63,956 bases of DNA from Chthonomonadales bacterium (GTDB lineage: Bacteria; Armatimonadota; Chthonomonadetes; Chthonomonadales; CAJBBX01). The notes beneath the pieces were generated by a model. It searched no databases. It had not been told where the DNA came from and saw only the letters and a program-made list of their open reading frames with translations. Every line of letters begins with the position of its first letter. The first letter of the stretch is position 1. The translations under genes and the position numbers were made by a program. This document shows positions 48,733-63,956 of this stretch, one piece after another. The stretch covers positions 1 to 63,956 of the forward strand of contig JADLGO010000012.1 of assembly GCA_020849275.1 (NCBI GenBank). The letters are read 5' to 3'.

Positions 48733-49038
48733 GGCAGCGCCCTCCGCCCGCGCGCTGCGCGCGGACCAACACGAGCATGCCCCGCGACCATGAAGCGCCG
48801 ATGAATGCCACCGCGCGGGATGGCCGCGTCCCGTGGCTGCCACCGCCGATGGGCGTTCGCCGGCGGCATCTGGCTGCCTGAGCAGGTGCCGATTCGGGCG
48901 GGAGAACGCGCGATCCTCCTCGCTGGGCCGATGCGTGGCTGCACCGCGACCGGCGCCCGCCGCTGCTGTTTGGCGCTCAATGTGATTGCCCCCGTACCCA
49001 TAAGCATGCGGACAAAGTCGCTGAGCAATAACCCCGGA

Positions 49039-49059
49039 CATATTCCCTGAGCAGTTACA
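49039..49059 (+). promoter_or_regulatory. Conserved upstream element, copy A
   Basis: A 21-base segment starting CATATTC and ending CTGAGCAGTTACA is 20/21 identical to 63411-63431, in front of another regulator gene. It ends 17 bases before the -35 box, an activator-type position. A related half, GCTGAGCAATAAC, lies 28 bases upstream. Confidence 0.7.
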
Positions 49060-49076
49060 AGGGATTGGATTCACCG

Positions 49077-49105
49077 TTGACAAACTTTCGAAGCCTTGCT
49101 ACACT
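49077..49105 (+). promoter_or_regulatory. Sigma-70 promoter of the GntR/LacI regulator
   Basis: TTGACA (49077-49082), a 17-base spacer and TACACT (49100-49105) give a near-consensus promoter. Transcription should start near 49112, leaving a leader of about 50 bases. Confidence 0.8.
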
Positions 49106-49163: not shown

Positions 49164-50297
49164 ATGAGCGCCTTCGTCCCTCTCTACCAGCGCATCAAGG
49201 AGCGAATCCGCGCCGACTATCTGGCGGCGCGATCGACCGGCCGCGACGCGCGGCTCCCCGCGGAGCGCGAGCTCCAGGCGCGTTACCGCGTCAGCCGGCC
49301 CACGGTCAGCAAGGCCCTCACCGCGCTCGCGGCGGAGGGCCTTCTCGTCAAGGCCCAGGGCCGCGGCACCTTCGCGGTTCAGCAAGACTGCCTCGCCCCT
49401 GCGCCCAACCCGACCGCCCACCGCATCGGTTACGTGGCCCCGCTCGCCGGCGCCGAGCTCGTGCAGCGCGCGCTGCGCGGCATCGACCGGGCCGCGCACC
49501 GACGCGGCTTCTCGGTCATCATGGGCAACGCTGGCAACGAGCCGGAGCGCGAGCGCGCTGCCGTTCGCGAGCTCCTGGCGGCCGGGGCGCGCGGCCTGGT
49601 GGTCTACCCGTGCCCCCGCGTGTGCGACGCGCCCTGCACTGACTACCTGGAGGCCGAGCACCTCGGCGTTCCCGTCGTCCTGGTCGACACCGCCGCGCCG
49701 GCCCAGGGGCAGGTGCGCGTGGTGTTCGCCAACCGGCGCGCCGCCCACGTCATGACGAGCTGGCTGATGGAGCGCGGGCATCGGCGCATCGGCCTCATCA
49801 CCTACGCCGAGCGGGTGCGCCACCCGCCCCTCGACGACCGACTTCTCGGCTACCGCGACGCGCTGCGGGACCACGGGATGGACCCCGATGACCGGCTTGT
49901 GCGCCGCTACGACCCGGCCCATGAGGTGGCGGCCCTGTCGGACCTCGCCGACGCGTGGCTGGTCGGGCCTGGCGCGCCGGACGCCGTGATCGCGCCCGAG
50001 GACATCGCCGCGCTCGAGCTGATCGAGATCCTGATGGCGCGCGGGGTGCGCGTGCCGGACGACATCCGCGTGGTCGGCTTCGACAACCGCGACGCCGCCC
50101 GCCGGTTCCGACCGGCGTTCGCCACCACCAACCCCGATTTCGAGTGCATGGGCGAGATCGCCGCCAACCTGGTGCTCGACGGCATCCGGGACGGCGCCAT
50201 AGAGCCCCACACCTACGTGCTCGACGTTCCGCTGCTCGTTCGGCGCGCGCCGGAGACGTTCCCGGCGGCCGTCGTGCAACGCGCCGCGGCACGATGA
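49164..50297 (+). CDS. GntR-LacI hybrid transcriptional regulator (AraR-like)
   Basis: The 377-residue regulator combines an N-terminal GntR winged helix (YQRIKERIRADYL, LPAERELQARYRVSRPTVSKALTALAAEGLLVKAQGRGTFA) with a C-terminal sugar-binding LacI/periplasmic-binding domain (RIGYVAPLAGAELVQRALRGI, AHVMTSWLMERGHRRIGLIT, DAVIAPEDIAALELIEIL, VVGFDNRDAARRFRPAFATT). This arrangement is that of AraR. Effector sugar unknown. It directly precedes a small membrane protein and a pseudopilin gene and may control them. ATG 49164 has only a weak AGGGGG Shine-Dalgarno. Confidence 0.92.
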   Translation: MSAFVPLYQRIKERIRADYLAARSTGRDARLPAERELQARYRVSRPTVSKALTALAAEGLLVKAQGRGTFAVQQDCLAPAPNPTAHRIGYVAPLAGAELVQRALRGIDRAAHRRGFSVIMGNAGNEPERERAAVRELLAAGARGLVVYPCPRVCDAPCTDYLEAEHLGVPVVLVDTAAPAQGQVRVVFANRRAAHVMTSWLMERGHRRIGLITYAERVRHPPLDDRLLGYRDALRDHGMDPDDRLVRRYDPAHEVAALSDLADAWLVGPGAPDAVIAPEDIAALELIEILMARGVRVPDDIRVVGFDNRDAARRFRPAFATTNPDFECMGEIAANLVLDGIRDGAIEPHTYVLDVPLLVRRAPETFPAAVVQRAAAR

Positions 50298-63324: not shown

Positions 63325-63410
63325 AGGCGCGCCCGCGGCGCGGCGCTGGTCTCACTCACTCAACGTGATGTCTCCCATGCCGCTCAGCATGAAGCGGCCT
63401 CGTGGGCGGG

Positions 63411-63431
63411 CATATTCGCTGAGCAGTTACA
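63411..63431 (+). promoter_or_regulatory. Conserved upstream element, copy B
   Basis: This segment matches 49039-49059 at 20 of 21 positions (core CTGAGCAGTTACA). It ends 15 bases before the -35 box, against 17 in copy A. Confidence 0.7.
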
Positions 63432-63446
63432 CAATGGATCTACCGC

Positions 63447-63475
63447 TTGACAGTCACCAGGGACTTCGCTATACT
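63447..63475 (+). promoter_or_regulatory. Sigma-70 promoter of the LacI regulator
   Basis: TTGACA (63447-63452), a 17-base spacer and TATACT (63470-63475) are near consensus. Transcription should start near 63482, at the left edge of an inverted repeat. Confidence 0.85.
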
Positions 63476-63510: not shown

Positions 63511-63956
63511 ATGCGCATCAAGGAGTTCGCCCGAACGATCGGCCTCTCTCCCACCACCGTTTCCCAGGCCGTCAGCGGCACCGGGCGCGTCAGCCCGCAG
63601 ACGCGCGCGCTGGTTCTGCGGCGAATGCGCGAGCTGGGGTACGTACCCAACCCGCACGCGCAGCAACTCGTCACTGGCCGGAGCCGTATCGTCGTCCTGC
63701 ACCACACCGACCAGGACATCGTCACTGACCTCTACCTGATCGAGTTGGCCCACCAGGTTCAGCACGCCCTGCGCGCGCGCGGCTGCGGGCTGCTGCTCGA
63801 TACGGCCAACGAACTTCAGGATGAAGACAACCCGCTGCGGGCGTGGCTGGAGTCCGCCGCGGTGGACGGGGTGATGCTGGTGCGAGGCTGGAGCGAGGTG
63901 CACGGGTGGATGCGGCGCTTCGCCTCCGCGCGCACGCCGGTCGTGTTGTTCGGTAA
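63511..63956 (+). CDS. LacI-family transcriptional regulator (3' truncated by window)
   Basis: The visible 148 residues begin with a LacI helix-turn-helix (RIKEFARTIGLSPTTVSQAVSGTGRVSPQTRALVLRRMRELGYVPNPHAQQLVTGRS) followed by the start of the sugar-binding domain (IVVLHHTDQDIVTDLYLIELAHQVQHAL, GLLLDTANE, AVDGVMLVRG). The hinge helix is normal. GAGGTGG is just upstream of ATG 63511. The gene continues past the window end. Its control region is nearly identical in layout to that of the GntR/LacI hybrid regulator at 49164. Confidence 0.92.
   Translation, partial: MRIKEFARTIGLSPTTVSQAVSGTGRVSPQTRALVLRRMRELGYVPNPHAQQLVTGRSRIVVLHHTDQDIVTDLYLIELAHQVQHALRARGCGLLLDTANELQDEDNPLRAWLESAAVDGVMLVRGWSEVHGWMRRFASARTPVVLFG

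Follow-up and report, generated by a model that had tools for sequence, protein, structure and literature searches.

Within the IS1202 family of insertion sequences, the ISAjo2-type elements, described as 'dif site hunters', generate 5-bp duplications at dif/XerC sites, and dif-bound XerC has been proposed as the receptor of this short-duplication group (Harmer et al. 2023, PMC10132070). The same study found no target for the long-duplication sister group, which includes IS1202, ISSeq2, ISTde1, ISCARN53/62/63, ISHahy13, ISShha1, ISVbsp4 and ISVisp7 (PMC10132070). The elements described here, compared with these named types by description, have the same TGT/ACA ends, inverted repeats of about 24-26 bp, an extra binding repeat and duplications of 16-17 or 27-28 bp, and probably one TnsB-like transposase; whereas the group has no published target, they lie at sigma70-type promoters. 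We found two of them as remnants in a 63,956-nucleotide stretch of DNA from a Chthonomonadales bacterium (hereafter, the window). The IS1202 family is known, and the apparent use of sigma70 promoters as the target of its long-duplication group seems to be new: our literature search, in which subscription papers were thinly covered, found no report of sigma70-promoter targeting by the family.

Results

Two solo left ends in the window

The initial annotation of the window had described near-identical segments upstream of two regulator genes, and these were readily recovered. The 21-base element CATATTC(C/G)CTGAGCAGTTACA occurs at 49039-49059 and 63411-63431 with 20 of 21 bases identical; no further match was found in the window even at three mismatches, with 0 expected in 100 shuffles. 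The associated CTCAA(T/C)GTGAT segments lie at 48976-48986 and 63359-63369. The annotated promoters 15-17 bases downstream are also present at both sites, each with a 17-bp spacer: TTGACA (49077-49082) and TACACT (49100-49105) start 17 bp past the first element, and TTGACA (63447-63452) and TATACT (63470-63475) start 15 bp past the second.

At the first site, the homology extends beyond what had been annotated, over 102 bp on the reverse strand (48958-49059; 93% identity to the other left ends of the genome, E 1e-39), and the element begins at 49059 and reads leftward. Its outer terminal inverted repeat, the presumed transposase-binding site TGTAACTGCTCAGGGAATATGTCC (49036-49059, reverse strand), is identical to the termini of copies located at contig ends and matches the right end TGTTCCTGCTCAGCGATAATGTCC at 19 of 26 positions. 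A second, inner element copy, likewise unremarked before, lies at 49021-49032 (CTGAGCAATAAC), within the inner one of the two presumed binding sites, TTATTGCTCAGCGACTTTGTCCGC (49008-49032, reverse strand). It is followed by a truncated transposase N-terminus, MGTGAITLSAKQQRR... (48948-49001, reverse strand), which contains CTCAATGTGAT (48976-48986) and has 67% identity in tblastn to the intact N-terminus of other copies. On the forward strand, 17 bp of host sequence (49060-49076), occupying the position of the duplication in intact copies and lacking a second copy in the window, separate the element end from the predicted target promoter (TTGACA-17-TACACT, 49077-49105, by consensus match) of the next open reading frame (49164-50297), a regulator with a GntR HTH and a LacI-type sugar-binding domain as read from its translation.

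The second site carries a copy of a second subfamily (63333-63431, reverse strand; 89% identical across 93 bp with the left end of the own-genome locus L010), with the terminal inverted repeat TGTAACTGCTCAGCGAATATGCCC (63408-63431, reverse strand), a transposase start interrupted by a stop codon (MLSGMGDITLSE*DQRR) and its inner binding site lost. On the forward strand, it is followed by 15 bp of host sequence (63432-63446), the predicted promoter TTGACA-17-TATACT (63447-63475, by consensus match) and a gene for a LacI-type regulator (63511-63956), which is cut by the window end. A near-identical LacI paralogue in locus L014 also has an IS left end at its promoter; there, GCTCAGCGATAACCCCC, between the IS end and the −35, resembles an older IS end.

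Searches of the window for a partner end or a target duplication of either copy found none; both are solo-end relics. In sequence terms, the two segments are solo left ends (terminal inverted repeat plus first transposase codons) of decayed IS1202-family copies. The initial annotation was right that the shared DNA does not stem from a common ancestry of the two genes; it stems from transposon left ends.

The element is a high-copy repeat with long target duplications

In the genome of the same organism (4.8 Mb, 73 contigs), the 13-base core CTGAGCAGTTACA has 30 exact matches; the core pattern read backwards, used as a control, gave 2 matches with one mismatch allowed. Most of the core copies sit 111-173 bp, and about 25 of them 111-185 bp, from a contig start or end. 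The assembly breaks lie inside a high-copy repeat, and most left ends are found at contig breaks because the near-identical copies fragmented the assembly. On its reverse strand, the repeat starts with TGTAACTGCTCAGGGAATATGTCC, continues with a second, similar repeat and then enters the coding sequence MGMGTITLSVRQQRRLEVLGKLGCGDIG..., the transposase N-terminus; the CTCAAYGTGAT segment is the reverse complement of the transposase codons I-T-L-S. The partner right end TGTTCCTGCTCAGCGATAATGTCCACATATTGCTCAGCGATAATGTCC likewise lies at contig ends and encodes the C-terminus ...TRAWLFAQR*, which resembles that of an Anaerolineales relative, L122 (...RQRAWLFGQH).

Left and right flanks could be joined through a common stretch of 16-17 bp in 19 pairings, which represent 17 distinct insertions after subtraction of two nested self-matches, and most intact left ends found a right end in this way. 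The common stretches are target-site duplications. Two promoters were hit twice (L007/L013 and L010/L018), in the order older left end, duplication, newer copy. Since the older end in L010 belongs to the second subfamily, as does the window site at 63411, the two subfamilies use one target. A promoter of Paenibacillus lycopersici was also hit twice (L248/L249). In these double hits the adjacent copies are separated by the 17-18 bp duplication, and they give no sign of target immunity.

Insertions adjoin sigma70-type promoters of unrelated genes

All 28 non-nested left ends in the own genome are followed by a stretch of 15-17 bp and, directly after it, by a consensus match to a sigma70-type promoter (28/28); the distances of 17 and 15 bp at the two window sites fit this rule. 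The −35 begins with TTGAC in 26 of the 28 targets, the remaining two being TGGACA and TTGCCA, and is very rich in information in this genome (10.5 of 12 bits). The −35/−10 spacing is 17 bp in 24/28, and the −10 is conserved at T1 (27/28), A2 (28/28) and T6 (28/28). A −10 matching at 4/6 positions or better is present at 93% of the targets; among 40 non-target TTGAC sites of the window, the share is 5% (Fisher p=3e-14).

The DNA past the ACA end differs at each copy, and on the opposite flank of the element the duplication is found again but the promoter is not. The genes that follow include those for tRNA-Ser, tRNA-Arg and tRNA-Glu; others we take, from reading their translations, to be ArgC, a SigH-like factor, a GAF-domain protein, three LacI regulators and one GntR regulator. 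Since the promoters belong to unrelated genes, they are the target and not the cargo. The genome-wide recurrence expected in the initial annotation was thus borne out, at a fixed distance from promoters, but its restriction to sugar regulators was not, as tRNA, argC-like and sigma-factor genes also follow.

The same placement in other genomes and phyla

Relatives were gathered by a phylum-wide search and a scan of 84,980 species, spanning many phyla, and extra copies were taken from multi-copy genomes. The pooled set comprised 66 unique insertions with verified long duplications, some of them from metagenome assemblies; promoters were called as consensus matches and their scores are simple match counts. 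In 59/66 insertions, the −35 of the best promoter directly abutted the duplication edge (offset 0), and the spacing was 17 in 52; the promoter adjoined the left end in 57 cases and the right end in 9. These counts are descriptive, as offset and side were picked by best score. TTG stood at offset 0 on the left-end side in 46 of 65 cases, versus at most 5 at any other offset. Under a fixed scoring rule, 71% of the insertions had a promoter score of at least 9/12 on either side, the corresponding rate at the remaining positions of these flanks being 0.29% per side, and 85% versus 1.5% reached a score of 8. The misses include the tandem copies L248 and L249, for which automatic scores are meaningless, and L173, in which the duplication was over-extended by chance; verified insertions with poor promoters are L131, L139, L250 and L253.

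Multi-copy genomes concur (Caldicoprobacter, Paenibacillus, Acidithiobacillus, Caloramator, Bacilli including the 27-28 bp class, and Enterococcus plasmids). Both duplication classes, 15-18 bp and 27-29 bp, follow the rule; examples of the longer class are L101, L114, L119 and L121 of G051, Bacilli L289/L303 and L304, and Bacilli L299-L302, which were read by eye. Because the rule is common to both classes, the edge at the −35 is fixed and the far edge shifts by about one helical turn. On an Enterococcus casseliflavus plasmid, the element lies 27 bp upstream of TTTCTT-16-TATAAT with the extended −10 TGTGG, at a par-type locus; the homologous plasmid pTEF1 is unoccupied and continuous through this site, matching up to the same base (299 of 300).

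The right end, rather than the left, faces the promoter in L137, L161, L089, L113, L276, L279 and L296. L089, which lacks a −35 on the left-end side, had been considered an exception to the promoter rule, and this was dropped as its right end faces TGGACA-17-TATGAT. From these counts, the orientation with the left end toward the promoter appears as a strong but not absolute preference.

Some copies had other arrangements. L098 and L096 have no duplication, and each of their ends faces a different promoter, the left and right ends of L098 being near-identical; this suggests recombination between copies or inversion joints. L141 comes from a bin labelled archaeal, and its contig stops four bases past the duplication (TTGA); it was excluded as evidence for archaea. 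In several Enterococcus plasmids, a 27-bp class IS1202-family copy precedes the leader and promoter (TTTACT-17-TAAAAT) of cfr(D), as on the E. faecium plasmid NZ_LR135354.1 (L317, 2303-2330) and in L319, L320 and L324; a Streptococcus parasuis plasmid has a shortened version of this copy.

Family membership and the dif-site relatives

The elements have TGT...ACA outer ends with imperfect inverted repeats of 24-26 bp (TGTAACTGCTCAGGGAATATGTCC and TGTTCCTGCTCAGCGATAATGTCC, 19/26), a second presumed binding repeat inside each end (TTATTGCTCAGGGACTTTGTCC left, TATTGCTCAGCGATAATGTCC right) and duplications within the 16-28 bp range of the group or close to it (16-17 bp in the own genome, 15-18 or 27-29 bp in relatives). 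The DDE transposase of the family, of about 394-507 aa, has a Q at +7 from the catalytic E; in the relatives it measures 422-480 aa, and E260...Q267 is invariant in A2. The own-genome transposase was seen as N- and C-terminal pieces alone, as the assembly breaks in nearly all copies and the genus is represented by one genome, and an NCBIfam search with a 61-aa N-terminal fragment did not recognize it. The modelled transposase of L122 (pLDDT 78) had its best PDB matches in IstA, TnsB and MuA, so that the nearest solved folds are those of Tn7 and type V-K CAST TnsB, IS21 IstA and phage MuA. Tn7 also has TGT...ACA ends. In contrast to Tn7/CAST, IS21 and Mu, the present elements, of about 1.3-1.8 kb with one transposase gene, encode no AAA+ target-selection partner. 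MITEAba12 differs from the present elements in that it carries promoters outward.

The relatives with 5-bp duplications (Acinetobacter, Photobacterium, Methylobacter) lie mostly 5 bp from dif-like sites, with promoter scores near background, reproducing the placement reported by Harmer et al. 2023 (PMC10132070). One of them, L257 of Methylobacter, departs from the 5-bp norm: it lies near a dif-like site, but its matching flank is 15 bp long. The own copies share with the ISAjo2 type (PMC10132070) the family, a fixed orientation and a fixed distance to a protein-bound site, but have 16-17 bp duplications at promoters instead of duplications of 3-5 bp located 5 bp from dif/XerC. A maximum-likelihood tree of 40 transposases places the dif group as one clade (99/97) nested within the promoter-seekers, where it looks derived; dif sites were seen in this clade alone. 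In this midpoint-rooted tree, the simplest reading is that promoter targeting is the older state.

Discussion

The two window segments are very probably left-end relics of long-duplication IS1202 elements that insert just upstream of sigma70-type promoters, the part played by RNA polymerase in locating the promoter being what we infer. The staggered cut nearest the target gene coincides, to the base, with the upstream border of the −35 hexamer, and it is mostly the transposase-start end that faces the promoter. The duplicated stretch is the 15-18 bp immediately preceding the −35 or, with roughly one more helical turn, 27-29 bp. The core promoter is left intact and a copy of the adjoining upstream DNA retained, so the target gene remains undisrupted and the site open to re-insertion. 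Inserted copies would then decay to solo left ends such as the two in the window.

Two readings in the initial annotation did not hold. A genome-wide co-regulator of sugar regulators would explain the fixed spacing upstream of the −35 and the three LacI genes and one GntR gene among the 28 targets, but its binding site would hardly run on into transposase codons, possess an inverted partner end and duplications, or precede three tRNA genes and other unrelated genes, which makes this reading highly improbable. Still less credible is a mobile cassette bringing its own outward promoter: the constant distance of the promoter downstream fits it, but the spacer and promoter differ at each copy, the far-side duplicate has no promoter, and a promoter is already present at the homologous unoccupied site. 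The chance that insertion is random and that selection retained only copies upstream of promoters, where they are least harmful, is practically negligible, as selection cannot produce the exact register, to one base pair, between duplication edge and −35 that is seen in 59/66 insertions.

A more serious alternative, unlikely on present evidence, is that the transposase reads TTGAC directly, RNA polymerase being uninvolved and the −10 being present because intergenic TTGAC sites are mostly promoters. The strong conservation of TTGAC in the own genome agrees with this; against it stand the scarcity of matching −10s at the other TTGAC sites of the window, the targets with a weak −35 (TTGCTG, TTGTTT, TTGGGC) that still have TATAAT at exactly 17 bp, and the TTTCTT-16-TATAAT promoter of the E. 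casseliflavus plasmid with its extended −10. In the pooled insertions, TG is also enriched before the −10 (of 57 sites, 35 have the T and 37 the G). The perfect −10s at weak −35s, the TG enrichment and the scarce −10s elsewhere are sequence patterns that favour recognition of an occupied promoter.

Since these elements of about 1.3-1.8 kb have one transposase gene, targeting must lie in the transposase together with a host partner or the DNA. For insertion upstream of promoters, the likeliest mechanism is recruitment by RNA polymerase: the transposase may locate the promoter through the bound holoenzyme (sigma region 4 or the alpha CTD), by analogy with XerC at dif, as proposed for the short-duplication sister group. 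On balance, we lean toward a scheme in which promoter-bound holoenzyme recruits a single-protein IS, with base-pair precision, to the upstream border of the −35 in active promoters, and in which the family once exchanged RNA polymerase for XerC as its receptor and a stagger of 16 bp for one of 5 bp.

The yeast elements Ty1/Ty3 and Tf1 are directed by the transcription machinery to sites immediately before transcription starts, and they spare the gene. The present insertions are alike in position and in sparing the gene, and we propose them as a bacterial counterpart of Ty3 targeting; they differ in that a bacterial DNA element at a sigma70 promoter, with a putative machinery contact, takes the place of a eukaryotic retrotransposon.

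Promoter targeting would answer the stated question of where the long-duplication IS1202 group inserts, and points to a way of choosing targets that would be new for bacterial DNA transposons. The insertions mark sigma70 promoters to the base and may serve as natural promoter maps in uncultured phyla. As everything upstream of about −53 or −65 is replaced, they could also change how their target genes are activated, the enterococcal resistance gene cfr(D) among them.
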